A DNA stretch of 64,000 bases from Narthecium ossifragum (Eukaryota; Streptophyta; Magnoliopsida; Dioscoreales; Nartheciaceae). The position numbers and the translations under genes were made by a program. Below, one piece after another: positions 3,437-60,361 of this stretch (its first letter is position 1; each line of letters starts with the position of its first letter). Location: positions 24,538,672-24,602,671 of the forward strand of contig OY986972.1 of assembly GCA_963920575.1 (NCBI GenBank), in the 5' to 3' direction. Below the pieces are notes generated by a model. It did not search any database, was not told where the DNA came from, and worked only from the letters and a program-made list of their open reading frames with translations.

Positions 3437-3883
3437 GGCTGTGTTTGGTTGGCGCTTTGATCACGGGAGAGGGAGTCACGACTCCCTCCGCTGCGTTTGG
3501 TTGGTATTTAAGCGTGGGAGAGGGAGAGCTCTCATGTCATGGGAGGAGAGAGGACTCCTCCCGAAATTGGGAGGAGTCTTCTTTCCTTCCCCTCCTTTCT
3601 GGTCAACATTTGTAATATTATTTAAACACCCCTTCTACTAAAAATACAAAGTTTAAGATCACAAAATACATTATAATATAGTAAAGGGTATATTAGTAAC
3701 TTCAATATCATTTCATTCCTTTCCCATCTTAATTTGGACATATCAAGCAAAAGCAACGTCTTTCCCTCTCCCTCTCTCATGATCATACCAAACACTAACG
3801 AGGGCAATCCCATTCCTTTCCACTCCTCTCCCTCTCCCACTCCCTCTCCCTCTACCTCTCCCGTCATGCAACCAAACGCAGCC
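3437..3883. mobile_element. Tourist-like MITE (PIF/Harbinger)
   Basis: The left end is GGCTGTGTTTGGTTG and the right end is its near-complement (CAACCAAACGCAGCC). A 3-bp TTA target duplication lies at 3434-3436 and 3884-3886. TTA duplications with GG(C/G)TGTGTTTGG ends are typical of Tourist MITEs. A second copy of the end motif occurs internally near 3490, so the element may have an internal repeat. No transposase is encoded. Confidence 0.75.
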
Positions 3884-3970
3884 TTATCTCTGCATCATGC
3901 ACTTGTCCAATAAAATTGGATCATATGGGTTTATCTTAAATGAAAACCAGATTAAATGGATAATAGTAAT

Positions 3971-22607: not shown

Positions 22608-25012
22608 TTTTTTTGAGAAGTTGAGCCGAAGCTAAAGCCATAAGGCTTACAGGGGACCAGACACCCTTACATGGGCAGCACGAGCTAGCTCGTCAGCCCT
22701 TACATTCAACTCTCTAGGTATGTGCACTAGCAAAAAGTGAACAAAATTTCCCAAGTGCCACCAAAGCTCCAGTAGCAGGCTCCTGCAGTCATCGTTGATA
22801 GGCATATGGCCATTCACCATATCAACAGCAAATCTAGAATCACTTTCTACGAATATATTCACCATGCCTCGCCGTCTGGCTTCATGTATCGCCGCTAGAA
22901 TTGCAAATATTTCCGCTTGAGGCACAGAGCTGGCGGCCGATGTCAAGGAAAGCTCCCATGTTGGGTTATCACCATCAAAGCAAACAACCCCAATTCCCAT
23001 TGCCCCTGATATGAAGGAAGCATCCACCTGTATGCGTACGCCATCCCACACCTCCCGCTCCACTCGACGGGCTTTCCAACCAGTTAGAAGAAGAAATTCC
23101 TTGATCTGCCATTTAATACTACGTGCCAGACTAGGGACAGTAGCCCCCTCTTGCCCATGGATCACACTACACCTCCTCTTCCAAAGAGACCATATAGTAT
23201 ATGAAATGGTGGATTTAATCGTCCTGATCTCATCCGATTTCATAGGCTTACGTATCCAGTCCATACACACCTGGAGGTTTAGCAGCTGAGGGTCCAGAAC
23301 CGTGCCTTCCAGTACAGCTCTCCATGTTGCAGTTGCTACACTGCACCCAAACAAAATGTGGTCTAAGGTCTCCTCTTCCGCTCCACAGGTCGGACAAGTC
23401 TTGTCACTGATCAAACACAGCTCCCACAAGCGATCTCGAGCAGCAACCTTCCCGTGCATCAGTTTCCAGAGGAAGTGTTGTACCCTGGGGCCGGCTGGGC
23501 TACGCCAGATACTCCACCAGGTGGCCTCCGGCTGCCTTCGATGCTGATGGCGTGCCTCGAGAAGTCGTAGCAGGAGCTCGTGGAGGGATGCCCAGCAGAT
23601 CCCCACACCCATCGAGGCCGAGAAGATTGGAGAGTGGAGGTTATAGGGAGAGCACTGACCTTTGCCACCAAATCTGGGTGAAGAAGAGAGGAGAGTCTGT
23701 CCACTCGCCACCCCCGAGTGATCCAGCAACTGGCCCAGCTCGATCATGTCCGCTTGCTCAGCGTCGAAAGTATAGGCCGATGAAGAGAGGGGGCCATCCA
23801 GCAGCCACCAGTTCCTCAGAACGTTAGCATGGCTTCCTTCTGTCACCGGCCATCGCAGGCCTAGCCGGAGTTGGTCTGATGCCCGGCAAATGGAGCGCCA
23901 AAAAGGAGAGGCGTTGTCCCGACACAATAGTGTCCGCTTTTGGCTCACCGCAGCCGATCGATCGATAAACCCACCGATCGATCGGACTTCCTGGGAGGTC
24001 ACCCCTCCCAAACCTACTCCAGCCCAAGCACGCTTAACACTAGAGTTTTTCTGACGGTTCACTGCCATCACGGCTTTAAAACGCGTTGTGTCACCAACAA
24101 TCCACCCCCCTTGGAGGCCCAGCGTCCTCGCTTGCACAATTTCCAGCTGGGAACCGGCTCTGATACCATACTGTAACGCCCCCGGCCCTTCACTGGATCC
24201 ACCCGAGGGCCCCACCCGAGCCGATCGATCGATAAACCCACCGATCGATCGGACTTCCCGGGAGGTCACCCCTCCCAAACATACTCCAGCCCAAGCACGC
24301 TTAACACTGGAGTTTTTCTGCGGTTCAATGCCATCACGGCTTTAAAACGCGTTGTGTCTATTAAGGGCTTACTATATACTTATATCGAACCCCAGACTAT
24401 ACCCAGGCGTTGTGGGATTGCTTACCCGGCTACCCGACTCAGCCCCGCCCTCCAGGCGCTGGCATCTTGTCCCACGGTAGACCCAGCGGGCCTCACAGCA
24501 GACATCAAGAAGACGGGCAGTGATTGTAGCACTGACTGCACTAGTGTGACTCGACCAGCCTCCGCAAGCTTCTGAGAGTGCCATCCCGATAGCCTAGCCT
24601 GCACAGCCTCCAGGAGAAAATTAAAGTCATGGGGGACCAGCCGCTTGTGATCCAGAAGCACCCCTAGATACTTCCATGGTCCATCCTTCTCCCTTAAACC
24701 CAACACCTTCAAGACCCGGTTCTTCCTCCTTTTACTTGTTTTTGGAGAAAATTTCAAACTGGATTTGTCTGGGTTCACGTCTAACCCAAAGAGGGTTCTA
24801 AATCGCTTTAGCACATTCATCAGCTTTAGCGCTTCCTCCTTGCCTGCCCTCGTCAGGAAGAGACAGTCGTCGGCAAATAGCAGGTGGGTCACCCGGAACC
24901 TGCCCCGATCAAAGGCCACCCCTTCCAGTTCGAACAGAGGCTGCTTAAGAAGCCTAGTGAGCACCTCCTGCGATAGTATGAAGAGATAGATGAACTGCTG
25001 AGAAACCCGGCC
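22608..25012 (-). mobile_element. 5'-truncated L1-like LINE with RT, zf-RVT and RNase H parts
   Basis: On the minus strand the element begins inside the reverse transcriptase domain. It shows the FADD catalytic motif (HLLFADDCLF, about 24860), LFGLDVNPDKS and WKYLGVLL. Further on are the zinc-binding linker of plant LINEs (FLWKLMHGKVAARDRLWE, CPTCGAEEETLDHILFGC) and a plant-type RNase H (QVDASF, QAEIFAILAAIHEA, VESDSRF, RELNVRADELARAAH). The 3' end is an A-rich tail at 22608-22616. An 18-bp duplication flanks it, so it is one insertion, truncated at its 5' end. The frame is interrupted at 23950-24500 by another element. It is non-functional: no ORF1, no endonuclease, and part of RT is missing. 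Confidence 0.92.
23950..24497 (-). mobile_element. small rearranged LTR element (TRIM-like) inside the LINE
   Basis: Read on the minus strand, a possible 326-bp LTR runs from 24497 (TGTGAGGCC...) to 24172 (...GGGGGCGTTACA). After it comes a primer-binding site for initiator tRNA-Met (TGGTATCAGAGCC, 24168-24156), a 70-bp interior and a G-rich polypurine tract before 24099. A second, partial LTR copy (24099-23951) shares about 140 bp with the first (ACACAACGCGTTTTAAAGCC through GATCGATCGGCT). It lacks both the TATA-containing first part and the terminal part. The interior codes for nothing. Missing LINE sequence on both sides suggests a deletion came with or after the insertion. The exact left limit is uncertain. 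Confidence 0.6.
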
Positions 25013-43600: not shown

Positions 43601-43859
43601 ATATCCATAGTTGAAACTGCGGAAATGGACTGCGTGATGCTGAAAAAGAACTGTCCATCGTAATGCCGAGAAAGAAGTACTCTATGCGGTCTTATATTAT
43701 CAATATTTTTTATACATTTTAATGATTTATTAATAAGAGAATTGCAAAACCGTGACAGGGGCATGGGTGAGTACTAGTATATATATATGCTTTAATGATA
43801 AGAATCAGGATGACATGCTTGGATCCGAGTCCATGGCAAGAGCAATTTCAGTGTCATAT
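40618..43859. other. intergenic DNA with a GC-rich, gene-like patch
   Basis: No gene can be named. A 68-codon frame (41214-41420, MGSPRSNASLSAALMNSDLC...) follows a TATATAAG string at about 41182; it could be a small gene, but nothing else supports it. Positions 42140-43010 are GC- and CG-rich with gene-like composition between AT-rich flanks, similar to captured DNA in Mutator-like elements. I found no terminal repeats for it. Confidence 0.35.
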
Positions 43860-45153
43860 TGTCGCGCCCCGACCCGCAGAGCGCACCCGGGCCGGGGACC
43901 GCGAGGGGAAGACACCTACAACTACTAGCCTCGACTGGCGGAAACAGCCGAGACAAAGGCCCAGCTGGCGGAAACAGCTGGACACCACAGAGAAAGAGCG
44001 AAAGCAGGAAACAAAAGCTAACAACATCTATTACAAACACATAATAGAGTTACAACAAAAGAAACCTAGATACAACAGATCTAGAACAAGGGGGGGTAAA
44101 CAGTCCCCACAAACAGAAAGCAAGCCACACTGCCCACCGGGGTCTCCACGAAGGCGCAGACAAAGCCATCCTGACCCTCAGACATGGTCAGGAGCCGGCG
44201 CGCTGCCATTGGACGACCGACGGGGCAACGGTTGGGAGAACCGGTCACCAGCACCTGCAACAAACACAGTCCAGGTAGGCATGAGCAACAGCTCAGCAGG
44301 GTCCCACTCCACAACCTCCACAAGAAAGACAAACCCAAAGACCAACCCTGAAGCCAAGTGCTGAGGCTTGCCAAGGATCCCATAAATCCTATCGATAACC
44401 CGAAGGGTCCCTGTCCCGAGTACGTCTCCGACTGCCACTGTCTAGGGATGGACAAACTCCGACTGTCCCTGACACAGGGTGGACATGACGCTACTGGTAG
44501 GACACCCTTCCCCAAGCGGGACCTCCACACTTGGCGGAACGACCGAGGTTACGACAACCACCTCCCAGCACTCCAAGCCACAGAGCCACGATCCCTGACT
44601 CCAGACCAGGCACTAAGTCTAAGGACTGCCAAGGTTCCATAACCCTATCGATGCCCCAAGGGCTCCCGACATGAACCTTGCTCATCACCCTAAGCACCCA
44701 ACAGGGGAAAAGGTTCCATGTGGGATCACCCTCTGCACCAACAGAGGGACGGAACCGTGCAGGACACCTCCAATTAGCACCTGGGTACGGAGTACAAGGG
44801 GGAAACACCCACCCAAACTAGCCTAACATGTCTAATGCACAGTTAAGCAAAACAGGGCAGATAGATATAAAGCTGTAAACAAGCAACACGGCAAGGACAC
44901 ACCTTCGGCCCATTTATACTAAACACTCCCGAGGGTCATGACTCCCTCGGTTCACCACAAAGCGGTAAGGGCATACCGTCAGCCCATTTATTCTACACAC
45001 CTGAGAGGCATCACCCTCCCAGTTCAACCACAAAGCGATAAACATTCATGCATAAATCATTACAGGATAAACCCCGAGGGTAAAACCGTAAAAAGTCGCT
45101 TGCATGCGAAGCCCCGCGGGCAAAACTCTTGAAAACCCTCTCTGCTACTGAAG

Positions 45154-45457
45154 GATCGATCCTCACCAAGGGAAGGATCGATCATCCAAGCAACAGTGAG
45201 CTTCCTCGCTGTCGAGCCAAAGAAGATCGATCATTCCTCCCAGGGAGATCGATCTCTTTGGTGACAGAGGGCACCCTTCCAGTCGCACCAGGGAAGATCG
45301 ATCCTTCCTCCCAGAAAGATCGATCATTCTCGGGACGAAGGGTAACCAAGCTTACCCAGGCCCCATGATCGATCTCCTCCCATAAGAAGATCGATCATGT
45401 GCTGGGCGCAGCAAGCCCACACCAGAGGACCGATCCTTCCTCCCAGAAGGATCGATC
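45154..45457. repeat. array of five GATCGATC dyads, 71-bp period
   Basis: GATCGATC (one copy GACCGATC) starts at 45154/45176, 45225/45247, 45296/45318, 45367/45389 and 45428/45450. Within each pair the starts are 22 bp apart. Pairs recur every 71, 71, 71 and 61 bp. The 14-bp spacers are often partly self-complementary (for example CTTCCTCCCAGAAA). Confidence 0.95.
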
Positions 45458-46015
45458 ACCCAAAGATGGGTTCCGGCGTGCTTCCGGCCGGAGAACCGCC
45501 GGAAAACACAACCAAACCCCACCAAACTTGGTGGGTTGGTAGATCTGAGTACAACGAGGCTACTCAAGGCCTCAAAACCGGGAAAGAACAACTCCACAAG
45601 GAGATCTAAGCAAAACAAAACCCGGATACAAAACCCTCAAACAGCCGGAGTTTAGAAGAAGAACCCTACCTCCTCAGAGCAGCTTCGATCCACGAAGACT
45701 AGCCACGGATCTTCCTCGCCTCGCTACGAACCCAACGAGCCTTCAAGCTCCAGGAGAGGTGGCCGGAGGAGGAAGAACGGAGTAGAGAAAGGAGCGGTCG
45801 GAACAGGGGAAGAAGCAGAGCATTCGCGGGAAAGAAGAAGAAGAGGGGAAGGAAGGAGGGGGAGGGGAAGGGGGTAAGGCCGGGGAAAGCCGGAGAAACC
45901 GCGGGAAAGGCAAAGGAGGGGAGCAAAAGTCTCCCCTCCCCTGACAGGGGAAGCGACGGCCACCGCGGTGGCCGTCCTTCGAAAGCCACCGACAAAGACT
46001 TCCAGGCACACGTAG

Positions 46016-46087
46016 GATCGATCATCCTTGCATGCATGATCGATCCTGCTAGCAACAGGATCGATCTTCACCCCAAGGTGATCGATC
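46016..46087. repeat. second GATCGATC ladder in the same LTR
   Basis: Four copies start at 46016, 46038, 46059 and 46080, so steps are 22, 21 and 21 bp without the longer gaps seen in the first array. Confidence 0.9.
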
Positions 46088-47030
46088 TTCTGTGCACTGA
46101 AAGGCAAACTTGGGCTGGGACTCGGGCCCAAGCCCAGAACCCCCAACCTCGGGTCCACCTAACCTTTCTAACAAACACAACCATCAAGCAAGGCCTGTGT
46201 GTGCACAGCCAGTGTGAAAACGACCGCCAAGGCGCAATTTCCCAAATTGCCCTTGGGGTAAACAACAAGCCGAAGGGATGGAGGGACGGGTCCTCACACA
46301 TATAGTTGGATCGCTATGGCAGAAATTAAAGCAACAAGCAATGATCCTTCCAACAATGAGATCATCCATTAAAGGCGTGTTTGGCGAAGGCGTGTTTGGC
46401 GATCGTCGGAATCCGGAATCCATGGGAAGGAGTCAACTGCAATTAAAACATGGGGGAAGGGGCGTCAGCACCATAAACTAGACTTATCCCGTTAAAAAAA
46501 CACTAAGCATAAGATTTGGGGCCTTAACACCATCTACCACTTCAAAAGACACCTATGCCCCCCTCCTACAACAACCTCAAAAAACATACGCTCTCCTCTT
46601 CCTCCTCTTCCTCTCTTCTCGCCTCCTCACTGTCACCCATCCGCCTCCTCTAGCTCCTTCACCTCCCGTCTCCTTCAAACCCCCATGAACGCCCTCCTTT
46701 TGCTCCTCAACCTCTCCTTCAAACGCCATGAACGTGCCTTAGAAGCTCCAAACGCTAGGCCATGTCAATGGATTCGCATCATCCCAAGAAGAATGGTTGT
46801 GATGGTTGCGGTGAGGAGAAGGGCACAACAGTCAAGAAGATGTGACCGTCGCCAACTATCACCGTAGATCGTCGCGGAGTTCTCCCACCAAGCCCCCGGC
46901 GTTGCCCGGATCAACAACGACAACTTCGGGCTCTGCCCTACCTCTATTCTTGCTGCCCCTTCTCCCCTGTCAACGAGGTCCCTCTGTTCTTGCTGCCCCT
47001 TCTCCCCTGTCAACGAGTTCCCTCTATTTT

Positions 47031-48196
47031 GGCTAAATTTTCATTTAGTACCCTGTAGTTTGACGCATATTTTTATGTGATCCTTATATTTCAAAAAGTT
47101 GTAATACATACCCTCAAATTTAATAATCGCTCTTATGTGGTCCTTCCGTCCACTCGCCGTCGAGTTTTTAACGGCAAAACGGGTCACGTCAGGTTTCTCA
47201 TTTATTTTAACATTTTTTAATTTAATGTTTAACTTATTTTAACATTTTTTTAATTTTTTAACTTATAAAATATGTTATAAGTCAGCTGCATCTCTCTCTC
47301 CACCTCCTCGCCGGCAAGCTGGACCCGTCCCTGTCTCCGGCCGTCTTCGTCGATCGCAAGCTCGACGATCGGGCTGCCGAGGTCGTCGAGGTCCTAGACT
47401 CACGGTCGAGCCGCCGTCGAGGATCCGATTGGGTGTGGGGAGGGGGTTTGGGAAGAAGGAGAGGAGGTGGAGAGAGGATCCGATTGCTCGACGTAGCCGG
47501 AGAGAGATCTGGCGGAGCAGGGGAGAGGGTTGGGGAAGAAGGAGAGGAGGTGGGGAGAGAGATCCGGCGGAGCAGGCGGAGGCGAGCACTGAACATGGGG
47601 AGAGAGATCCGGCGGAGCAGGGGAGAGGGTTGGGGAAGAAGGAGAGGGTGGGGAGAGAGATCCGGCGGAGCAGGGGAGGGGGTTGGGAGGGGAGAGGGTT
47701 GGGGAAGAAGGAGAGGAGGTGGGGAGAGAGATCCGGCGGGTTGGGGAAGAAGGAGAGGAGGTGGGGAGAGAGATCCGGCGGAGCAGGGGAGAGGGTTGGA
47801 GAAGAAGGAGAGGGTGGGGAGAGAGATCCGGCGGAGCAGGGGAGAGGGTTGGGGAAGAAGGAGATGAGGTGGGGGGAGAGAGATGTAGCGGAGCAGCCGA
47901 AGGACGGTGAGCAGGGGATCCGATCGGGTGTGGGTAGGGGGTTGGGGAAGAAGGAGATGAGGTGGAGAGAGAGAAAGCTGAAATAAGTTAAAATAAGTTA
48001 AAAATAAGTTATTAAATTAAAAAATGTTAAAATAAGTTAAAAATCTGATTTGCCGTTAAAAACTCGACGGCGAGTGGACGGAAGGACCACATAAGAGCGA
48101 TTATTAAATTTGAGGGTCAGTATTACAACTTTTTGAAATATAAGGACCACATAAAAATATGCGTCAAACTATAGGGTATTAATTGAAAATTTAGCC
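47031..48196. mobile_element. Mutator-like element, 1166 bp
   Basis: The ends GGCTAAATTT and AAATTTAGCC are exact complements, and the inverted repeats extend over 150 bp (GTAGTTTGACGCATATTTTT; CTCGACGGCGAGTGGACGGA, and so on). The perfect 9-bp duplication CTCTATTTT lies at 47022-47030 and 48197-48205. Joining the flanks restores a repeat unit (TGCTGCCCCTTCTCC...TGTCAA) already present just upstream. The interior is a GC-rich minisatellite. Confidence 0.92.
47500..47960. repeat. minisatellite in the Mutator-like element
   Basis: Units containing GAGAGAGATCCGGCGGAGCA and GGGGAGAGGGTTGGGGAAGA, repeated at least six times with variable spacing. All frames stay open, so long reading frames here are not evidence of a gene. 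Confidence 0.85.
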
Positions 48197-48224
48197 CTCT
48201 ATTTTTGCTGCCCCTTCTCCTCTG

Positions 48225-49195
48225 TCAAGAGAAAAGATAATTTTGAAAAGAGAACTTAGAAGAGAAAAAAGAGAAAAGGGAACTAAGAAAAAGAGAAGAG
48301 AGAAGAGTGTAGAGAGAAAAGAGAATTTTGAAAAGATAACATTGAAAAGAGAAAAGAAAAAAGATAAACTAAGAAAAAGAGAAGAGAGAAGAGTATAGAG
48401 AGAAAAGAGAACTAAGAAAAGAGCAGAGAGAAGAGAGTAGAGAGAAAAGAGAATTTTGAAAAGAAAACTAAGAAAAGAGAAGAGAGAAGAGAGTAAAGAG
48501 AAAAGAGATTTTTGAAAAGAGAACATAGAAGAGAGAAAAGAGAAAAGAGAACTAAGAAAAGAAAAGAGAGAAGAAAGTAGAGAGAAAAGAGAATTTTGAA
48601 AAGAGAACATAGAAAAGAGAACTAAGAAAAGAGCAGAGAGATGAGAGTAGAGAGAAAAGAGAAAAGAGAACATAGAAGAGATAAAAGAGAAAATAGAACT
48701 AAGAAAAGAGAAGAGAGTAGAGAGTAGAGAGAAAAAAGAATTTTGAAAAGAGAACTAAGAAAAGAGCAGAGAGAAGAGAGTAGAGAGAAAAGAGAAAAGA
48801 GAATTTTGAAAGGAGAACATAGAAGAGAGAAAAGAGAAAAGAGAATTTTGAAAAGAGAAGAGAGTAGAGAGAAAAGAGAAGAGAGAATTTTGAAAAGAGA
48901 ACTAAGAAAAGAGAATAGAGAAGAGAGTAGAGAGAAAAGAGAAAAGAGAATTTTGAAAAGAGAACATAGAAGAGAGAAAAGGGAAAAGAGAAAAGAGAAC
49001 TAAGAAAAGAAAAGAGAGAAGACAGTAGAGAGAAAAGAGAATTTTGAAAAGAGAATTTTGCAAAGAGAATTTTGCAAAGAGAACTAAGAAAAGAGCATAG
49101 AGAAGAGAGTAAAAAGAAAAGAGAAAAGAGAATTTTGAAAAGAGAATAGAGAAGAGAGTAGAGAGAAAAGAGTAGAGAGAAAAGAGAAGAGAGAA
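48225..49195. repeat. purine-only satellite, about 1 kb
   Basis: The plus strand is nearly all A and G, built from words such as AGAGAAAAGAGAATTTTGAA and GAACTAAGAAAAGAG in units of about 40-60 bp. It is strongly strand-asymmetric. Confidence 0.9.
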
Positions 49196-49460
49196 TTTTC
49201 CGTTTTCACTTTTCACTTTTCTATGTTCTCTTACTCTTTCCTCTTTTCTCTCTTCTCTTTAAGCCTTTGCATTGTTTCACCCTGTCAACACATCCACCAC
49301 CCAGCTTCAATCACATAGACCATAAATCCCTTCACATACCTCTCATGAGAAATGATTGGTGTGTCCTCTCTTGATCAGAGAAATGGTCTTAGCTTCACAT
49401 TCCATGTTCTTCACAGTCCCTGTTCTTTCTCATGCTCATATCCATCCCTTCACATACCTC

Positions 49461-49680
49461 TTATATCCATGCCCAAATTTGCTGGATGAAGCCGTTCATG
49501 GGGACGGGGTATGTGGATGTGTTTGCGAAGCCGAATATCTGAAAGGAGTGGCCGGGGTCGGAGTAGACATAGGAAGCGTCGTCCATCACGAAGACCTCCA
49601 ACGATGACGGATCGGAGGCGTTGTCGTGCTGTGATGACGGATCGGAGGCGGCACACTTCTTGATCACGGTGGTGGAGACG
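49461..49680 (-). pseudogene. fragment of a non-specific phospholipase C (NPC) gene
   Basis: The minus strand reads VFVMDDASYVYSDPGHSFQ, then IFGFANTSTYP, then VPMNGFIQQ. The order DPGHSFQ...IFG...PMNGF(V/I)QQ is characteristic of plant non-specific phospholipases C, which cleave membrane phospholipids to diacylglycerol. Only this piece is recognisable, it has lost the residues normally between DPGHSFQ and IFG, and it sits inside a Mutator-like unit. It is most simply a captured exon fragment. Confidence 0.65.
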
Positions 49681-50059
49681 AAGGGCGACGCCGCCCATGC
49701 CCATCTCGATTTGGTCGGACATCGTGTTGACCCGCCTGTCGCCGTCGACGGCGGGGTGTACTGACTTCTCGATGGTGGCTAGCCGAGCGGCGGGGGAGAG
49801 GGTGCTGGGGGAGAGGAGGGTGAGAGGGAGGGGGATGATGGAGGAAGATGACAGTAAGAGAAAGGGAAGAGGGACGGGGAGAGGGAGAGGGATGATGGAG
49901 TTATAGTTGGGATTAGGATTTGGGTTATCATAGGGGTAAAAAGGTCATCAAAATTATATAACCAATCATAACTATCTATAACTGATGTAAAATGGTGTTA
50001 AGACCTTAAATCTAATGATAGGGGTGTACCCATCAACAAGTTTCACAAATTTGATGTAA

Positions 50060-50361
50060 ACACCAGTTATCTGTTAAAATAACAATCTTTTTATAAATTC
50101 CTCATGCTTTCCGTTCCTCTGGCCCACTTTGAACGGAACACGTCTAAAAGGGCCGAAAGCCCAAGAAATTTGGACTCCCGTTATACATTCCCCGAGGTCC
50201 AGGCTTTCCTTAACATGCACCTCTACGTGGACCATTGATCCTAATCTAGAGATCGTTTTCTAGAAACGCAAACAATGAAAGGATCACCCATGATAGTCTG
50301 TACCTTAGGATGCTATACAGCAAAAAGAGAAACGACGATGTGAACAGGGATCCAGCCTTGA
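50060..50361. repeat. inverted copy of 36950-37245
   Basis: Reverse complement of the segment upstream of the ENT gene, ending at CAAGGCTGGATCCCTG. See the partner entry. Confidence 0.85.
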
Positions 50362-50579
50362 GCCGTTCTAAACAAGAAGTGATCGGTACATGTCAGGTAA
50401 TCATGTGCATAATATATGACCACTTTTAACGCTCCAGATTCACCCATATTCACTGGCCCCAATCACATAAATTAATAATATATGACCATGTAAGCCATGT
50501 GTATTGTACATGACTGAAAAGCCATGTACACAAATCTTTTTACATTTTAAAGTTATTTCCCCATTTTAAGATGGATAAT

Positions 50580-50617
50580 GTTTTGTGTACATGGTTGCGG
50601 AGCCATGTACACAAAAC
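50580..50617. other. perfect 15-bp hairpin
   Basis: GTTTTGTGTACATGG and CCATGTACACAAAAC are exact complements separated by an 8-base loop. A further half copy (GCCATGTACACAAA) lies at about 50521-50534. It lies just past the recognisable part of the GT47 pseudogene; no function is evident. Confidence 0.8.
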
Positions 50618-50639
50618 ATGCTGACGTGGGCATGTTTTA

Positions 50640-50789
50640 AATGCATATACCTCCTCTCCCACAGGGTGAACGAGTCGTCCGAGAAGAACACCGGCATGCA
50701 GCCCATCAAGACTGAGTCGAAGGTGGACCGTCGGGTGAACTGGCGGCCGACGGTTGCATGCAGAACTCGACGATGAGCATGACCCTGAG
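50640..50789 (-). pseudogene. MUR3-like (GT47) pseudogene, downstream part
   Basis: The minus strand reads GRQFTRRSTFDSVLMGCMPV, then FFSDDSFTLWERRYMHL. It matches the exostosin-domain block (TRRSxFDSxLxGCxPVFF) of plant xyloglucan galactosyltransferases. It continues the gene whose upstream part is at 55778-56565; the LTR at 50790-55772 separates the two. Confidence 0.75.
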
Positions 50790-52881
50790 TGTCGCGCCCC
50801 GACCCGCGAAAGCCCAACCGGGCCGGGCGACGCGAACCGGAACCTAACCAACGCGGAAAAAGAACGACGAGGGTTCCCTCTAACCTATTGGTCTCCCTAG
50901 CAATTCACCAAAACACCTTCAAGAAAAACAATATTATATTCAAGCCTCGAACCACAGATTTAAAACTCAAAAAGATGTAATATACATAACCTCGGAGAGG
51001 GGTAGTTCAAAGTACAACATTACTCCCGTAGGAGACTAACTAACATAGGGTAAAAGCAGTAAACGATCACCACCTCTCAAAGTACACCAGGCGCCGCCGC
51101 ACCGCCGACCAATTGCTCGGTAGGGGCCACAGAGGAAGAACTGACGCATGCACCTGCAAAACGCAGCCCGGGTAGGTGTGAGCACTAAGCTCAGTAGGGA
51201 TCTACACTACGCCACACAGAAGGAAGAGGAAAACACAACAGTGTCGCCCTCAAGCCAGACTCGAGTGAGCTACAATGGTCCCATTACCATTCACCGGTGA
51301 TCTCTAGGCATATCCAACCATGTTCACCCCAACGGACTGGGCCCATCCTGGATACGCCTAGTGTCGCAGGGTTCCAGCTGTGGTCACCCAAATCGCCATG
51401 GGCCCACACTGATGCCCCTACTGGCAGGAACGAACACTGCCCAAAGAATAAGACCCGTCACCGGTGGCATCCTCAACACCTGACTTGAGGCCGACACGAC
51501 CTCTACAATCATCAAGCAATAAGTGTACCAGTCATCTAAGCCTATCATCGAATCAACTGGACACCACAATTCAACCGGGTCCTAACAGCTCAACCCCGGT
51601 CCTAAGGCTAAGTCCGAGCTTCCAGCCTCGGGACGGCGACCCAAGGATCACCCACGCCCTAACCAATGCAACTAATGCACACAACAACAATGCATGCTAT
51701 GACATACACAGATAATAGGAAAGGCATGCAACAGTATGTCAAGCATCATATAAGTCTACTGGATCGCTGCAGCGGTACCACCAACCGCTGCCAGCCGATC
51801 CGCAGCGGGTCCCGGCATTACGACGGTATCGCGACCGTCAACCGCGGACTCCTGCAACGGGAAGCAACCCCAAAAACGATGATGAACAAAACACAATATA
51901 ATATTATATTCCGAAATATAATATTATATTCAAAAACACCCAAAGCCTCTACTTAGGGGCTAATTGATCCCGTCGATCCGACGCCCAAACGACGTCGGAT
52001 TCAAGATCCAACTTAGCCACCAGTAGGTGTATAAACCAGTATCATCATATCCAAAAATCATAATCATCCAACGGTTGGATTAACGGGAAAACGCTAATCA
52101 AAATCGCTAATCACACTAATTTACCCATTCATTGCTGCAACGCAGCCCTCCAGCAAACAATTCATAAGAAATCATACATAAATCGGACAAATATGAAACA
52201 AGATGGAATGGAAAGCTAACGACTAGATCTACAACTCTTATGTTTATGAAAAGCCAAGATTATGTACTCGCCGGCCGAGAAACTCGCCGTAAGCCGGCTG
52301 TTTCTCAAGAACAGCAGAAAACCAGAAATCTGAGACTAATCTTGCATAAAACCTACTCAAAGCTCAACTGATTAACATGAAACTTAAATAAGTGATTCTA
52401 AAAGGCATAAGGAAACCAACAAAGCAAGGATCAACAAGATCCGACGGCTAGATCTCAAGAAAACCCGAAAAGAACATCAGTAGGTATAACCCTACCTAGC
52501 TGCGCTTTCCTCGGCTGATTCCCCGCGATTTGATCGCCAACAAGCTGCCAAATCACACCAGGAGCCTTCCTCTCGTTGTCACTAATCCAACGAGCCAAAG
52601 AACACCCAATTTGATGGCCGGAGGAGGGAGAACGGAGGGAAAGAAGCTCGCCGGCGGTAAAGGGAAGAAACAGAGCACCGCGGGAAAGAGAGAAGGAGGG
52701 AAGAAGAAGAGAAGGAGAAGGGGGAAGAAGAGGGGAAGAAAAGAGGGGAAAGGGGGAAGGGAAAGCCGGGAAAGAGGGGAAAAAGCTGGGGAAAAGGGAG
52801 GGGAAGTCTTCCCTCCCTGACAGGGGAGAGCGACGGCCGACGGCCGTCCTCGCGAAAGAGAAAACCCACCGACTCGAGCAT

Positions 52882-53047
52882 GATCGATCTCCAAGGCATG
52901 TGAGATCGATCTCCTTTGCAATCGAGATCGATCTCCTTTGCAATCGAGATCGATCTCCTTGAAATCCATATCGATCTTCTTTGCAAAAAAGGCCAGATCG
53001 ATCTCCCTAGCCATCCAGATCGATCTCCCTAGCCATCCAGATCGATC
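52882..53047. repeat. GATCGATC ladder at 22-bp steps
   Basis: Copies start at 52882, 52904, 52926, 52948, 52969 (as TATCGATC), 52996, 53018 and 53040. Steps are 22, 22, 22, 21, 27, 22 and 22 bp. Flanking words (CTCCTTTGCAATCGA; CTCCCTAGCCATCCA) show recent tandem duplication. Confidence 0.95.
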
Positions 53048-53614
53048 TCCTTTACTAAGAAAGGCAAACTTGGGCTAAAACACAAGCCCAAGCTCAGATC
53101 TTCCGATCTCGGGTTCGCCTAGCCATTCTAAACAAACACGAACACAGACAAGGCCAGTGTGTGCATACGCGGGTGTGAAACAAACCAACAGGTGTTTGCC
53201 CTACCTGACCGCCCTTTCGCAGACGAGGTGCAGCCGTCCTATCAGGAGTACCTGTCTCAGCACCCGCTTCCACTGACCGTAGCACCACCCGCCTCCAGAG
53301 GTAGCTGTTACCGCTTTGTAGTATCCTGCTAGGCGTTGTTTTTGTTTTCGAGCCCTACCTTAATCGAATCTCGAGGACGAGATTTCTTTTAAGGGTTTTA
53401 GGATGTGAGGACATGCCCCTCTTTTCCCTTTTGGCTTGTGTTGACCCCAAGGGCAATTTGGGAAATTACGCCTTGGCGGTCGTTCCACACTGGGTGTGCA
53501 CACACAGGCCTTGCTTGATGGTTGTGTTTGTTAGAAAGGTTAGGTGGGACCTAGTTTTGGAGTTTTGGGCTTGGGCCCGTTTTCCAGCCCAAGTTTGCAC
53601 TCCTGGGCAGGGGG

Positions 53615-53644
53615 GATCGATCCTTTGGTCGTGGAGGATCGATC
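53615..53644. repeat. single GATCGATC dyad
   Basis: Two copies at 53615 and 53637, 22 bp apart. Confidence 0.9.
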
Positions 53645-54196
53645 CTGCCTGTGTCTGGAAGTCTCTGTCGGTGGCTTTCGAAGGACGGCCACCGCGGTGG
53701 CCGTCGCTTCCCCTGTCAGGGGAGGGAAGACTTTCCCTCCCCTCCCCCAGCTTTTCCCCGCCTCCCCCGGCTTTCCCCCGGCCTTACCCCCTTCTCCTCC
53801 CCCTTCCTTTCTTTCTCTTCTTCCCTCTTCTTCCTCCCGGCTCTGTTTTTCCCCTGTTACGGCTGAGAGCTTCCGCTCGCTGTTCTTCCTCCTCCGGCCA
53901 CCTCTCCTGGAGCTTGAAGGCTCGTTGGGTTCGTGGCAAGGCGAGGAAGGTCCTGGGGTAGGACTTGTGGATCGAAGCTGCGTTGAAGAGGTAGGGATCC
54001 CACTCAAACTCCGGCTAGCTTTGAGGGTTTAAATCCGGGTTTTGTTTTCGTTTAATCTCCTTGTGGAGTTGTTGTTCCCCGTTTTGAGGCCTTGAGTAGC
54101 CTCGTGGTCCTCAGATCTACCAACCCACCAAGTTTGGTGAGGTTTGGTTGTGTATTCCGGCGGTTCTCCGGTCGGAAGCACGCCGGAACCCATCAG

Positions 54197-54501
54197 GATC
54201 GATCCTCCTGGGAGGAAGGATCGGTCCTCTGGTGTTGGCTTGCTGCGCCCAGCACATGATCGATCTTCTTATGGGAGGAGATCGATCATGGGGCCTGGGT
54301 AAGCATGGCTACCCTTCGTCCCGAGAATGATCGATCTTCCTGGGAGGAAGGATCGATCTTCCTTGGTGCGACTGGAAGGGTGCCCTCTGTCACCAAAAAG
54401 ATCGATCTTCCTGGGAGGAAGGATCGATCTTCTTTGGCTCGACAGTGAGGGAAGCTCACTGTTGCTTGGATGATCGATCCTTCCCTTGGTGAGGATCGAT
54501 C
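54197..54501. repeat. array of five GATCGATC dyads
   Basis: Starts at 54197/54219 (second as GATCGGTC), 54258/54280, 54329/54351, 54400/54422 and 54472/54494. All pairs are 22 bp apart and recur every 61, 71, 71 and 72 bp. Spacers such as TTCCTGGGAGGAAG make the 30-bp unit a near-perfect inverted repeat. Confidence 0.95.
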
Positions 54502-55777
54502 CTTCAGTAGCAGAGAGGGTTTTCAAGAGTTTTGCCCGCGGGGCTTCGCATGTATGTGGTTTTTACGATTTTTACCCTCGGGGTTTATCCTGTAATGAAT
54601 TGTGCATGAATGTTTATCGCTTTATGGTGAACCGAAGGAAGTCATGATCCTCGGGAGTGTTTAGAATAAATGGGCCGAAGGTGTGCCTTTGCTGTGTTGC
54701 ATGTTATTGCTTTCTCTATTTATATCCTGCCCTGCTCCTGTGCATTAGACATGCTAGGTTGGAATGGGTGGGGTTGACCCGTGGACTCCGGTGATCTAGG
54801 ACTAAGCGTGGGATGTCGTTACCCCGGTAAGGGTGTCCTACAAGTATCGTCTGGGCCACCCTGTGCCAAGGACCGTCGGAGGTAGCCCAGTCCTTGAGCA
54901 GTGGCTATCGGAGGGACGTAGGTTGGACAGGAACCCTGGGGGGGGGGGGAGACATCGATGGGATCGATGGACTCCCTGGCTAGCCTTAGTCTTGGGTCAG
55001 GAGTTAGGGGTCCTGTTGGCTCTGTGGCTTGGAGTACTGAGAGATGGTAGTCTTAACCTCGGTCGTTCCGCCAAGTGTGGAGATCCCGCTTGGGGAAGGG
55101 TGTCCTACCAGTAGCGTCATGTCCACCCTGTGTCAGGGATTGTCGGAGTTGCCCACCCCTGAGCAGTGGTTGTCGGAGGGGCGTACTTGGGACAGGAATC
55201 CTTCGGGTTAGTGACGGGATTTATGGGGTCCTTGGCAAGCCTCAGTACTTGGCCTCAGGGTTGGTTCGTTTGGGTTTTGCCTTCTTAGCGAGGTGGTAGA
55301 GTAGGACCCTGCTGAGCTGTTGCTCATGCCTACCTGGACTGTGTTGTTGCAGGTGCAGGTGGCCGCTCTGTTCCTGTGTTACCTCCTCGGTCGTCTCGTG
55401 GCAGCGTGCCGGATCCTGACCATGTCTGAGGGTCAGGATGGGTTCGTTTGTGCGTTCGCGGAGACCCCGGTGGGTAGTGTAGCTTCTTTTTGGGGACTGT
55501 TGATCCCTTGTAGCTTGTTGTACTAAACCTTTGTTAACTCTTTTATTACTGTTTTGTAATAATTGTTAATAGCTGTTGTTTAGTACCCTTGCTTCCGCTT
55601 GTGACTGTTGGCAGCTGTTTCCGCCAGCTGGCCGTAGTCTCAACTGTTTCCGCCAGTTGAGGCTGTAGTTGTAGGTCTTTTCCCCTCGCATCCCCGGCCC
55701 GGTTGCGCCCTGCGAGTCGGGGCGTGACACGGTCCACAGCGAGCCACAGGGGTAGAGGGGCAGGTCCTCACACTGAG

Positions 55778-56565
55778 GACCCGGTCCGGCTCGTGGCAGT
55801 CCTTAGAGCCCGGGCCCCGGCGCGCACTGGGCCTGGAGGCACTGGCTTGATGAGCCGCATTGGCGAAGGATCTCCGTGCGCACTGCCGCCTTCTCCAGCG
55901 TCAGTGGACGGGGCCCATCGAAGAAGGCGAAGAGGTGGTTCCGCTTCGAACGGTCATGTGTTCCGAGAAGAACACCGACACGCATCCGCCCAGGACCGAG
56001 TCAAATGTGGACCGTCGGGTGAACGAGTTGCCCGGCGGTTGCATGTAGAACTCGACGGTGAGCATGATCGTGAGGACCTGATCCGGCTCGCGGCAGTCCT
56101 TGGAGCCCGGGCCCGGGCACGCACTGGGCCCAGAGGCACTGACTCGATGAGCCACACTAGCGGAGGATCTCCGCGCGCACTGCCGCCTTCTCCAGTGTCG
56201 GTGGCCGAGGCCCACCGACGAAGGCGAAGAGGTGGCTCCGCTTCGAACGGCGAGCCGTGTCTTGCCACGCGGCGACCTCGGCGGTGGAGGTTGGGTGAAA
56301 GTAGGAGGGGTAGGGGATGTCAAACTGGTGGCGTGCGCGGCCTTGTCAGGGGCCGAGCTCGACGGTGAGCACGGACATGTTAGCGAGCTCCAGGAGGAGG
56401 AGGCGGCTGGTGCCAAAGTTGGGGTTGGCGTCGTTGCGCATGAAGCCCCACGTGGTGCAGCTAATGGCGATGAAGTGGTCACGGCTGCCGCCGCGGAGAA
56501 AGAAGGATTGGTCGGAGAGGTGGGTGGCGAGATCGTGGGCGAGGGTGTCGCGGAGGTTTGCTGGT
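55778..56565 (-). pseudogene. MUR3-like xyloglucan galactosyltransferase (GT47) pseudogene, upstream part
   Basis: The minus strand reads LRGGSRDHFIAISCTTWGF, NMSVLTVELGP, a stop, FDIPYPSYFHPTSTAEVAAW, FAFVGGPRP and TRRSTFDSVLGGC. These are the exostosin-domain landmarks of plant GT47 galactosyltransferases, Golgi enzymes that galactosylate xyloglucan. At least two in-frame stops and a frameshift break it. The block from FAFVGGPRP to TRRSTFDSVL is present twice in tandem: 56240-55965, then 55965-55778 continued at 50789. The N-terminal half of the family is absent. Clearly a dead copy. Confidence 0.8.
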
Positions 56566-56744
56566 AAGGCTAACACATTAACCAAATACCCATATATAAT
56601 ATACTATTATTTTACTATAAAAGTGGGTGGTCACGTAAATATGTGTATTGCACATGCCTACGTGGCATGTACCCCAATCAGAATCCGCAAATAAATAATC
56701 GGTAGTCGGCCGAGGGTAGGGCTAGGAATTTTATTTTGGACGGG

Positions 56745-57352
56745 CGGTGTAAGTTATTTTTTTATTTAAATATAATTAAAATAATTGATGTTGGATAGTT
56801 TTGATAAATTAATTTTGCAATACAATAAATGAAGTCTAAAATACCGAATTAATGTAACAATATTAGTAATGTTCCAATAAATATCACCTCATTACAATTG
56901 TCCTCAACCATTATTGATCATATTTTGAAGCGATGATGCGTATCAAATAAGCTTCAAGTTGAGCTTTCAGTATCTCGAGTCGTGTTTCCCAATAATAATA
57001 ATAAAAAGAAACCTTTTAGATAAAATTGGACCAGACGAATCAACTTTTGCTTATCGAAATAAGCAAAAGAGTAAATCAGACTCACACATGATTTTTTTTT
57101 TTGTACAGTTAAGCTGCAACAACGCTGAGATGGTTATAGGACAATCAAGCTACCCTAGTACCAGCCAAACGAGCAATCTCGTCGGCCCTTCTATTCTTCT
57201 TCGTGGAGATATAAACAATAAAAAAGTCAAAAAATACATTGAGCCAGCCTCCACCAAACATCAAGAAGTGCATGTCCGTAGCCCGCCATAATTGGGGATT
57301 TCTCAGGAACCATTTGAACAATCTCCTACTCTCTCTTCCAAGGCTTATAACT
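56745..57352. repeat. direct copy of 37335-37523 plus 39511-39790
   Basis: Carries the empty target of the 2-kb Mutator-like element (ACCATTATTGATCATATTTT at about 56911) and a LINE tail that the other copy lacks. Confidence 0.88.
57083..57282 (-). mobile_element. short LINE 3' fragment
   Basis: A T-run at about 57092-57102 is the A tail on the minus strand. Upstream on that strand lies the end of a plant LINE RNase H (ISTKKNRRADEIARLAGT). It is absent from the partner segment at 39.65 kb, so it is an insertion, though its target duplication is not clear. Confidence 0.65.
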
Positions 57353-57490
57353 CTGCTGGGAATTTTGAAAATTATAAGAGATAAATGTCATTCGGAAGTT
57401 TTTAAGGATATTTGTGTAATATAACATTAACCTTTCCTAGTTTGTATCCAAGCCGCGTCCAACGCCGCTTCTAATCTTGGCGTGCGTTTA

Positions 57491-57734
57491 ATGCCAGTTT
57501 GATATGAGAATAACTTTATTTCGGGTTAAGGGAGTTTATTCCCGATTTCGAGAATAACTTTGTAATGATTACTTGAAATAAAGAAAAAGTAGAGAGGAGA
57601 GTGGGAATAACTTTGTAATGATTACTTGGAATAAGGAAAGGTGTTTGGAAAATAAAGTGTGGGATAAGTAGTGGAATTGGGAATATTCTAGGAATATTTC
57701 CTCCCTGAATGCTTATTCCCGTTTGGTATGGGCC
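57491..57734. mobile_element. MITE with TTA target duplication
   Basis: The left end is ATGCCAGTTTGATATGAGAA; the right end reads GGCCCATACCAAACGGGAAT in complement. TTA flanks both sides. An internal direct repeat (GAATAACTTTGTAATGATTA, two copies) is visible. Confidence 0.55.
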
Positions 57735-57737
57735 TTA

Positions 57738-58334
57738 GGGGTGTAAAGGAGGCAAAATCGATCTGGTTCGAGTTCGGCTCGAAATTCCTAAAGCCAGGCT
57801 CGAGTTCGTTTGGAGTTCGATTTGAGCTGGGAACTCATGGCTCGAGTTTGGCTCGGTTCAAATCGAGCTACCTCGAATTCGGCTCGTTAGCTCGGTAAAG
57901 TCTTGACCCAATCTCTCTCGAGCTGGAGAGAGAGAGAGAGTCGGGAAAAAGCATGCCGGAGAGAATACGTCAGAAATATTTCTACCGGGGGAGAGAGAGA
58001 GAGATCGGGATACAAGAGGGATCGCTCGGCAATTTGGGTGGTCTTGTAGCTGGTGTGAAGGACACGAGACGTAGGGGAGGGAGGCAAGGGTGAGGCGGCG
58101 GTAGGTATCCCACGGAAGCAAATTATGTTTGATTTCTCAGCCATTGATCTTAGAAGCCAACGGCTGAGATATCTTGAACATATCCTATCTTAGGCGTTGG
58201 CAAAAGAGAGAGAAATCACGGAGAATGGGTGGGGGCGGCTTGGGTTTTAAAGCCCTAAGCGGTCTCTTTATTTAATAGAGCTTACATCTCATTCGTTGAT
58301 ATGAAGATCTAACGGTTGAGATCTTAGCTATTAA
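57738..58334. other. repeat-derived DNA
   Basis: The first 170 bp are rich in GGCTCGAGTTCG/GTTCGGCTCG words and resemble 60545-60720. GA-rich microsatellites occur at 57925 and 57991. No gene. Confidence 0.4.
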
Positions 58335-58574
58335 GGCTGTGTTTGACGCGCATCCCGCACGAAATCAGGGATCCGGAATCCAGAATCCGATGGATACTGT
58401 GAACGGTGTCCGCTTGATTTCGGTATCCGCCCTTGATTTGGAATCCACCGGTGCTCCGCCGTGATCCAGGAATTCAAAATCCGCGGGGCGGTGCACCAAA
58501 CATCAGGAATCCGGAACCCACGGATTCCGGGATCTAACGGATTCGCCTCCATTTCATGCATCCAACACATGCCC
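58335..58574. mobile_element. MITE, same family as 16501-16690
   Basis: The ends GGCTGTGTTTG and CAACACATGCCC are imperfect complements with a TAA duplication (58332-58334 and 58575-58577). The body shares GGAATCCG/GGATCC words and ACGGATTC(G/A)C with the copy at 16.5 kb. Confidence 0.7.
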
Positions 58575-58707
58575 TAAATGAATTCAGAAAAGTATGTAAA
58601 CTTTTTAATAAATATATCAAAATCCTTAGCTGAAGATCCAGTGGCGGTAGAAAAATCTATGAGACATATATGGACTAGTTGTGCCCCCTGCCACATGACA
58701 GGGTAAT

Positions 58708-60356
58708 TGACGCGCCCAAACCACTCGTCGTTAAGAGTGACTAGGGCGTCAAAGATTACAATTTATACCGAATCCTACTAACTACTACGTAGCTAGCGGG
58801 AGTCCGGGTCGATCCGCAGGGAAATGAGAAATGACTAACGTACTCGATAGATAACTCCAAACAACTAGCTAAAATGATTTGGGTTTTGGATTAATGACTA
58901 TTAAAGTAATTAACTAAGTGAAAAGAAAGATAACTAATATAGAGAGGTCTTGGGATCTCCATTTCATTGTAGGTTCTAGTGTAGCCTCCTAAGGAATTGA
59001 GGTGTGTAATCCAATCGGGACGATCGAAATCAAGAAGTCGACAAGCGGGTGATTAGCCTCACTTATCGCTCAACGAAAGTCGGGTTAGGATCATCCGCCG
59101 GAAATAATCACATTCACAAAGTCGACGAATGAGTGATTAGCTTCTATCGTCGCTAACGAACCTTCGATTAAGATCGATTCGTCGCAAGAAAAAGATATTG
59201 CATGGAGTCGTGCATTGGATCGAGATGGTTCTAACACCTCGAATCCAATGCAAGAGAAAGATAGAATGGATCCTTTGATTAGAGAGATAGGGATGGTTCT
59301 AGCATCCCTAATCTCTAATCTAGGGCTAGTAATCCTCCCAATGTCATTGGATGTGTTTCTAGCACATCCAACTCATTGGGGCATAACAACAAACACCTAT
59401 CATGCACAAGTCCCAACTCATACCAAAGAAAGGCATTCATCCATTCAACATATGAAATCCATGTACAAAGATAGAGAAATAATGCTCAAATCCATACAAT
59501 AAATCAATCCCTAAAGATTACACATCAAAAACCCTAGGAAAACTACAAAAGAATCCTACAACTACATGGAAATCCCAAGATAGAGGAAGTTAGCTACTCA
59601 TCTTGGTTGGATCCATGGATGGAGGTTGATGAAGCTCTCCTTCCATGGGTTTTCTCCAAGAAGTCCTCCTCTCAATTGGGTAAAGAAACCTAGAAGGGCT
59701 GGAGAAGACAAAGAGAAGATTCCCTAAAATCCCCCCTAAGGGGTCTATTTATAGTCAACAAGCCTCCCCCACTCGGATTAGATCTGAGCCATTGATTTTG
59801 CTCGGCTGGCATCAAAGGATCGATCCTCATAAGGTGAAGGATCGATCATTCGCTTCGTGTGATCGCTGGTCCCGTGAAGGATCGATCCTCCCATAGGAAA
59901 GGATCGATCTTTTCTTCTTGAATTCTGGCTTCGCCCCGATGAAGATCGATCCTCCAGTGTGTGGAGATCGATCCTTTAGAATTTGCATTCTGTCACTGGG
60001 AAAATGCGCAAAAGTGATCGATCCTACCCAGGGTGAAGATCGATCCTTCAGAACTTGCGTTCTGTCACTGAGAAAATGCGCAAAAATGATCGATCCTCTC
60101 ATGCCATAGGATCGATCCTTGTTGTCCTGATTGGCTCCTTCTTAAAGCACTTCAAAGGATCGATCCTTCTTCCATACAAGATCGATCTTCTTCATAAAAA
60201 CTGGCCCGGATGACGTCGTTTAAGCTCGGAACTTGATCCAATCCTCGTTGGGGGCACTTGTACCTGTAATAGGGTAAAATCCATCAGTAAAGCCTTGCTC
60301 AGAGACTAACAAGGCCAAGTTAAAAGGGTGATTTATGCACTTTTCACGTCTTATCA
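58708..60356 (-). mobile_element. solo LTR of a second retrotransposon family, 1649 bp
   Basis: On the minus strand it begins TGATAAGACGTGAAAAGTGC and ends TTGGGCGCGTCA, flanked by a perfect 5-bp duplication GTAAT (58703-58707 and 60357-60361). Its ends and body differ from the TGTGAGGAC family. No internal region remains. It contains six GATCGATC dyads. Confidence 0.9.
59818..60187. repeat. array of six GATCGATC dyads
   Basis: Starts at 59818/59840, 59880/59902, 59944/59966, 60016/60038, 60088/60110 and 60158/60180. Every pair is exactly 22 bp apart and pairs recur every 62-72 bp. Sequence between dyads is partly repeated (TTCTGTCACTG(G/A)GAAAATG twice) but otherwise diverged. Confidence 0.95.
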
Positions 60357-60361
60357 GTAAT

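Follow-up and report, generated by a model that had tools for sequence, protein, structure and literature searches.

Why does one palindromic octamer, GATCGATC, recur in pairs at a near-constant step in the long terminal repeats (LTRs) of different retrotransposon families? The question is raised by a 64,000-nucleotide stretch of the Narthecium ossifragum genome (contig OY986972.1, positions 24,538,672 to 24,602,671), referred to here as the window. A first-pass annotation of the window reported 16 such pairs in three arrays, and one more pair at position 53615, all with starts 22 bp apart. It offered three explanations: a site for a dimeric or tandem protein, a hairpin-forming signal, or a shared mobile repeat. 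We refer to each octamer as a core and to two closely spaced cores as a dyad. Read from sequence, the dyads are probably the repeat unit of a DNA-level promoter or enhancer array for a putative dimeric protein, carried in an LTR retrotransposon module that is common to families.

Paired cores in the window

The window contains 48 GATCGATC cores, against 1.02 expected from dinucleotide shuffles, the richest of which held 5. Exact GATCGATC-N14-GATCGATC dyads, with a step of 22 bp from start to start, number 21 against an expectation of 0. Most cores fall in LTRs of two families, A and B. The features concerned are listed below, with steps in base pairs.

43860 to 46298, minus strand: solo LTR of family A (Gypsy), copy 1, 2.4 kb, with ends and target duplication read directly (CATAT at 43855-43859 and 46299-46303)
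45154 to 45457, minus strand: GATCGATC array of A copy 1, 9 exact cores, steps 22/49/22/49/22/49/22/61
46016 to 46087, minus strand: second cluster of A copy 1, closer to the LTR 5' end, 4 cores, steps 22/21/21
52882 to 53047, minus strand: array of an A-type LTR fragment, 7 cores, steps 22/22/22/48/22/22
53403 to 55480, plus strand: LTR of family A, copy 2, starting TGTGAGGAC; the 3' boundary at 55480 is provisional
53615 to 53644, plus strand: dyad of A copy 2, at about LTR position 212
54197 to 54501, plus strand: GATCGATC array of A copy 2, 9 exact cores, steps 61/22/49/22/49/22/50/22
58708 to 60356, minus strand: solo LTR of family B, with GTAAT target duplication at 58703-58707 and 60357-60361
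59818 to 60187, minus strand: GATCGATC array of B, 12 cores forming 6 dyads, steps 22/48/22/50/22/50/22/42/22/40/22 in the sense direction, 5' to 3'
59774 to 59785, minus strand: second shared promoter motif of B, AGATCTAATCCG, between array and TATA box
59746 to 59754, minus strand: TATA box of B, CTATAAATA, with the nearest core 63 bp away

Copy 1 of family A and the LTR at 53403 are 84.6% identical over 1347 bp. The sense strand of family B was taken to be the minus strand because of the placement of its TATA box and array.

The arrays, the 22-bp spacing and the pair at 53615 reported in the first-pass annotation are all present. Its 16 pairs in the three arrays reduce to 14 exact ones (4, 4 and 6), the other two each having one core altered at one position (GACCGATC at 45428 and GATCGGTC at 54219). 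Absent from its list are five exact dyads in 52882-53047, one at 46016-46045 and a further two, at 23956 and 24223, in which the step is 20 bp. These last two (GATCGATCGATAAACCCACCGATCGATC) are 267 bp apart, in window positions 23956-24250, and sit in a stop-to-stop frame that appears LINE RNase H-like by eye. The 28-bp string GATCGATCGATAAACCCACCGATCGATC recurs elsewhere on C1, one contig of the genome, and apparently belongs to another repeat type.

Abundance and spacing across the genome

Pairing of cores is a genome-wide property. A total of 379 Mb was scanned, with the pattern read backwards as the control; pair counts include pairs with another core in between, and the spacings counted are those given in this text. 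A genome-wide histogram lacking a peak at 22 bp was to refute the original claim; the peak is present, with 33,313 pairs (control 3). The step is not as strict as had been supposed. Pairs at 23 bp are also abundant (19,361; control 7), as are those at 8-21 bp taken together (24,843; control 206). Counts are lower at 24-28 bp (1,957; control 41) and reach a trough at 34-36 bp (222; control 11). They are high again at 39-41 bp (11,829; control 9) and at 48-50 bp (20,699; control 8).

Twenty random stretches of 10 kb, with 192,590 readable bases, hold 116 cores, a density of 602 per Mb where base composition predicts 14. At least one core is present in 13 of the 20 stretches, and 107 of the 116 lie less than 130 bp from another core. 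The sequence CTAGCTAG occurs once in the same sample. Extrapolation gives about 230,000 cores in the genome, with a wide error because the cores are clustered.

Possible helical phasing of the steps between cores

Forty-five arrays of at least three cores, comprising 278 steps, were assembled from the window, the random stretches, the stretch L001 (L-numbers label sampled stretches of the genome) and 19 stretches picked on C1 for differing spacer types, which are hence not random. Arrays were grouped by BLAST with the cores masked, since unmasked cores align with themselves and merge 44 of the 45 arrays. Nine groups without a mutual match of at least 90 bits were obtained, of 21, 11, 5, 2 and 2 arrays plus four singles.

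Collapsing repeated steps within the nine groups leaves 64 steps, for which the best period is 10.20 bp (R 0.45) in a tested range of 9.5-11.5 bp. This value is matched by none of 2000 sets with a jitter of at most 5 bp. Restricting the set to the 45 collapsed steps between 26 and 75 bp moves the best period to 10.60 bp (R 0.46), reached by 1 of 2000 jittered sets. When copies are counted, 110 of 127 steps of at least 26 bp fall in whole-turn bins (33 of 46 in family A and 77 of 81 in the others). These bins, drawn after the data were seen, take up 32 of the 69 whole numbers from 26 through 94. The comb of spacings is strong as counts; the number of independent origins behind it may be smaller than the group count suggests.

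A true 54-bp step between neighboring cores, off the comb, is seen at 989-1222 of L035 and at C1:368967-369028 (GATCGATCTCTTGGCGGC...).

A fixed distance to TATA and a second motif

An array was assigned a TATA box if CTATAAATA, allowing one change, occurred no more than 110 bp away. By this definition 19 of the 45 arrays, in five groups, have a TATA box nearby, and all 19 lie upstream of it. The nearest core is 62-64 bp from TATA in 18 of them. In the nineteenth, L043, the distance is 84 bp, or 62 + 22, and the expected position has no core. Across the genome, core-(48-78)-CTATAAATA occurs 7,099 times (control 2), with 6,367 of these pairs at 61-64 bp (control 0), and the reverse order, TATA before core, occurs 21 times (control 7). 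On C1, 96 of the 100 core-TATA places listed are at 61-64 bp, although all such places are copies of far fewer types. The remaining four are at 52, 52, 59 and 73 bp; all but the one at 59 are roughly a helical turn away from the main distance, and the two at 52 are near-identical copies.

A second motif, GATCTAATCCGA, is located between the array and TATA, and GATCTAATCCGA-(14-28)-CTATAAATA is found 3,166 times in the genome (control 0). The fixed order and distance place the array upstream of the inferred start site in the TATA groups. The other 26 arrays have no CTATAAATA on either side within 110 bp at one mismatch. These are 21 arrays of family A, two in L009 and those of L030, L034 and L039. 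At 3780-3899 and 5104-5223 of L009, the cores have flanks like those in TTTGGATCGATCCAAA; on the TATA side stand degenerate copies, GATCAATC and GATTGATC, which is the pattern expected from CpG decay in an older family's cores.

An ancestral array with GATCTAATCCGA and TATA could have spread among families by template switching, in which case the arrangement would reflect mostly history and little present function. The second motif and the TATA interval look alike across groups and, once the cores are masked, weak matches of 42-85 bits connect the five TATA groups. This weak similarity makes inheritance or exchange of one module likely. The shared mobile repeat proposed at first survives to that extent: similarity beyond the cores exists, short and weak and, in the parts inspected, mainly in the promoter stretch. 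It does not extend to family A, which has dyads without the TATA module and which only the unassigned singleton L039 matches at E <=0.01 (86 bits, cores masked). Drifting indels would also not be expected to leave a trough at 34-36 bp beside peaks at 39-41 and 48-50 bp.

Conservation bears on the same point. When diverged copies from the same group are compared, agreement is 95-99% for cores and 68-76% for neighboring positions (gaps excluded, four alignments), a comparison biased upward by anchoring of the alignments on the cores. Masking the cores before alignment, which biases the figure downward through misplacement, gives core agreement of 78-89% against 68-76% in three of the four alignments. 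By either measure the cores agree better than their flanks, which weighs against descent of a module with little function. We regard such descent, as the main account of the arrays, as distinctly possible though not probable.

Copia and Gypsy elements both carry dyads

Protein domains identify some of the carriers. L006 has an array and TATA box upstream of a Copia gag open reading frame (ORF; Retrotran_gag_2 and gag_pre-integrs domains). In L023, an A-type LTR with its array directly follows a Gypsy pol ORF (RVT_1, RT_RNaseH, integrase and Tf2-1-like domains). Together, these two cases mean that dyads are carried by both superfamilies. All carriers of known nature are LTR retrotransposons, as judged by 5-bp duplications and gag or pol domains. 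L006 also has TGGTATCAGAGC, which we take to be a primer site. In L009 a nearby protease ORF weakly suggests Gypsy. A Pfam scan of seven ORFs from six 3.4-3.6-kb flanks downstream of other arrays gave no match.

GATCGATC is also the ligation junction of Hi-C or Chicago libraries made with a GATC cutter (PMC5288721, PMC10849321), and the cores were considered as a possible assembly artefact. This was rejected, as complete LTRs that are homologous to each other have their cores at constant positions, and two of these LTRs are bounded by target duplications. Read-trimming pipelines that cut at the GATCGATC junction may lose coverage of these LTRs.

Two further features of the window were noted. 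Positions 48208-49200 hold a long minisatellite with 14/21-bp steps, whose open frames are rich in LSSLFS-like repeats. A pentatricopeptide protein encoded in the window matches proteins of date palm (72%), a Dioscorea (68%) and Acorus (59%).

Symmetry and folding of the dyads

The 14-bp spacer had been described as partly self-complementary, and we find the same. In 41 thinned spacers, in-register pairing is 46%, against 25-31% when the partner is slid. Positions 1-4 of the spacer pair with positions 14-11 above the permuted expectation, both in 92 spacers (z 7.0, 6.5, 3.7 and 4.8) and in the 41 thinned ones (z 4.6, 4.4, 2.8 and 2.8). Across 87 non-redundant dyads, positions 1-3 covary between the two inner flanks, between the two outer flanks and within each site. 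This covariation persists when permutation is confined to groups (z 2.0-6.2). The four flanks of one dyad tend to share bases, read outward from the core, and arrays have flank dialects such as AAG-core-CTT or TCC-core-GGA. Symmetry at the level of the site and of the dyad are inseparable because all four flanks covary, except that inner-inner pairing is prominent at inner position 4.

Symmetry of this kind could reflect a hairpin or cruciform, if what counted were the ability of each dyad or 71-bp unit to fold, either into a structured RNA or as the origin or target of small RNAs, as has been suggested for palindromes of maize Sirevirus LTRs. Spacers and outer flanks do pair and covary, and the maize literature ties such palindromes to small RNAs (PMC10760457). 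Folding was scored against shuffles of single bases between exact, fixed cores. Whole arrays of family A fold far better than these shuffles, with sense/antisense z of -7.1/-7.5, -7.1/-5.2 and -7.4/-9.1; the corresponding values are -3.7/-1.9 for B and -2.2/-1.9 for L006. In four of these five arrays the sense strand has the lower raw folding energy, and it has the more negative z in B, one A copy and L006.

Single units fold better than shuffles with mean z alike on both strands (A, -2.40/-2.63, n=29; B, -1.31/-1.15, n=11), and for two A arrays the antisense z is the more negative. The sense strand has no excess of G-U pairs, either in 41 TATA dyads from five groups (34 against a permuted expectation of 42.0) or in 29 family A units (82 against 96.5 expected). 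Covariation without a G-U excess makes selection on RNA pairing unlikely and argues for selection on the DNA, not the transcript. In addition, the outer flanks of family B do not pair (outer-only z 0.19), the TATA-assigned arrays all lie upstream of TATA, and folding predicts neither the spacing comb nor the fixed TATA distance. Folding, covariation and counts of G-U versus A-C thus point to a real symmetry that is not clearly strand-specific, and the RNA hairpin signal suggested in the first-pass annotation is not favored. The wider proposal, which includes cruciforms and small RNAs, is unlikely.

Within family A, the 71-bp units (54150-54560 and 45110-45500) have self-complementarity that runs past the dyad, and a row of hairpins is predicted (array z -5.2 to -7.5 over both strands). 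A hairpin role may apply to this second, deeper and strongly self-complementary array of the family.

A putative dimeric protein and a proposed phased promoter array

The reading we favor is that of a promoter or enhancer array on DNA. A homodimeric DNA-binding protein would recognize each GATCGATC core together with roughly 3 symmetric bases beside it. Two such dimers would sit about two helical turns apart (19-23 bp). Further dyads would follow mostly at whole turns (39-41, 48-50, 59-63 and 70-72 bp), placing the sites on one face of the helix. In the TATA groups, the last core would stand 61-64 bp upstream of TATA, with GATCTAATCCGA between them, as one module that recruits transcription. 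Copia and Gypsy families would share core and spacing because they answer to one trans-acting factor, whose sites they would have inherited, exchanged or converged on. From these regularities we infer protein binding, dimerization, activation and a common factor. GATA or GARP-type factors were considered as possible binders of GATC. The first-pass proposal of a dimeric or tandem protein bound to one face of the DNA, with its sites kept across families, is partly supported, in that the comb and the 61-64-bp TATA distance agree with it.

Several results weigh against the promoter-array reading. Array groups are linked below 90 bits and so are only partly independent: even after core masking, the TATA groups match each other weakly, with best matches of 38-85 bits. 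Merging at 40 bits leaves four groups and 44 steps, with R 0.33 at 10.25 bp, which 565 of 2000 jittered sets reach, and the result of a coarser collapse to two groups is reached by 25 of 1000 sets. The best period shifts with the subset, being 9.56 bp for all 278 steps and 10.60-10.64 bp for longer steps. Family A has off-phase steps of 44-46, 54 and 68 bp. Pairs at 53-55 bp number 3,820 in the genome (control 14), part of them sums across a third core; one family has the true 54-bp step. No CTATAAATA is found near the arrays of family A, the commonest family in the sample, and the larger of its arrays occupies a position some 0.7-1.1 kb inside the LTR. Covarying flanks are not predicted by one fixed protein specificity, and the margin of core over flank agreement narrows when cores are masked. 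Family A departs from the favored reading in three respects: it lacks the TATA module, has some off-phase steps and has a deeper, self-complementary array. The weak links between groups, with the non-significant four-group period, lower our confidence both in the promoter-array reading and in a code read by one factor.

Loss of significance after lenient merging is also what a purely mutational origin would allow. Tandem duplication of a 22- or 71-bp unit, with palindromes perfected by strand switching during reverse transcription, would produce arrays with no selected function. Some arrays do have a regular alternation of 22 and 49-50 bp, with similar adjacent flanks. However, this process does not yield steps of 12, 30, 40 and 60 bp beside a trough at 34-36 bp. 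It also does not yield a fixed TATA distance, or the same octamer in Copia and Gypsy elements, and we consider it very unlikely.

The promoter-array reading can be extended to a single regulator. One factor, or a small family of factors reading different GATCGATC flanks, might control many Copia and Gypsy LTR families by a phased promoter code, an extension that is possible but on balance doubtful. The code would comprise some 230,000 sites by extrapolation, with dyads two turns apart, arrays at whole turns and the last site 61-64 bp from TATA where a TATA box is present. If this were true, different families would have come to the code by exchange or convergence and would be turned on or off jointly, perhaps in the germ line or as a means of evading silencing. 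One genome would then have a common promoter grammar across transposon superfamilies, with a geometry testable by simple reporters. It would become testable by which route different retrotransposons come to share a regulator (descent, exchange of modules or convergence), and whether the host or a transposon supplies it. Tens of thousands of dyads would serve as natural variants for measuring the constraint of helical phasing on a eukaryotic promoter.

Comparison with known systems

Repeated activator boxes of LTR promoters such as that of Tnt1 are known as family-specific elements, and are not known to be common to Copia and Gypsy families of one genome in a fixed geometry. The dyads resemble Tnt1-type activator boxes as symmetric or repeated elements in an LTR promoter. 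Tnt1 box I is itself named as a symmetric regulatory sequence in PMC2829016.

In the accessible text of open-licence papers, we found no description of GATCGATC dyads in retrotransposons. GATCGATC occurs in that literature in ligation junctions, a primer and a made-up example. The motif is also reported in 15 rice sperm-expressed genes (PMC3224587) and in a list of rice iron-excess motifs (PMC8207140).

The VANC targets of VANDAL transposons offer a parallel with a known binding protein. Their motifs are YAGTATTAY, AGTTGTCC and AGTTGTAC (Hosaka et al. 2017, PMC5735166; Sasaki et al. 2023, PMC10398659). By analogy, a transposon protein could bind the repeated motif here and remove methylation from all carriers. 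Both systems have a short, sequence-specific motif that is multiplied in the non-coding parts of transposons, in versions that differ between families. The VANC6 motif is also found in an unrelated transposon (PMC5735166), and every GATCGATC core contains a CpG. In contrast, the repeated motif here is GATCGATC, which is unrelated to the VANC motifs, and the carriers are LTR retrotransposons, not VANDAL DNA transposons. An anti-silencing system of this type is quite improbable for the dyads.

Maize Sirevirus LTRs have clusters of palindromes, which a 2016 study, as described in PMC10760457, places in the cis-regulatory part of the LTR and regards as able to form hairpins. These clusters differ from the arrays described here. 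Their motif is CACCGGACNNNGTCCGGTG, it is also found in Helitrons, and no spacing comb is described in the accessible part of that paper.

The closest described system is that of the Sirevirus RM boxes (Bousios et al. 2010, PMC2829016). The first-pass statement that no element of this form had been described was too strong, as these are palindromic boxes upstream of TATA in LTRs. RM boxes are present in at least 8 copies per element, upstream of the promoter, and are proposed to be regulatory. Their core is CGG-CCG in 12 of 13 elements, and they are specific to Sireviruses (Copia). As in RM boxes, the flanks of the cores diverge while the box stays. At least 8 palindromic copies are likewise present, with the LTRs alone holding 12 in B and 13 and 11 in the A copies. 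The RM-box placement relative to TATA is found in 19 of the 45 arrays (18 at 62-64 bp and one at 84 bp). Unlike RM boxes, the repeated core is GATCGATC and not CGG-CCG; the Tnd-1 RM box, ACAATCGATTGT, has only ATCGAT in common with it. The arrays also reach beyond Copia, as the Gypsy pol beside the A-type LTR array of L023 indicates, and they are built of dyads with a spacing comb and, in the TATA groups, a fixed distance to TATA. The arrays described here thus differ from RM boxes in core, pairing, geometry and spread beyond Copia.

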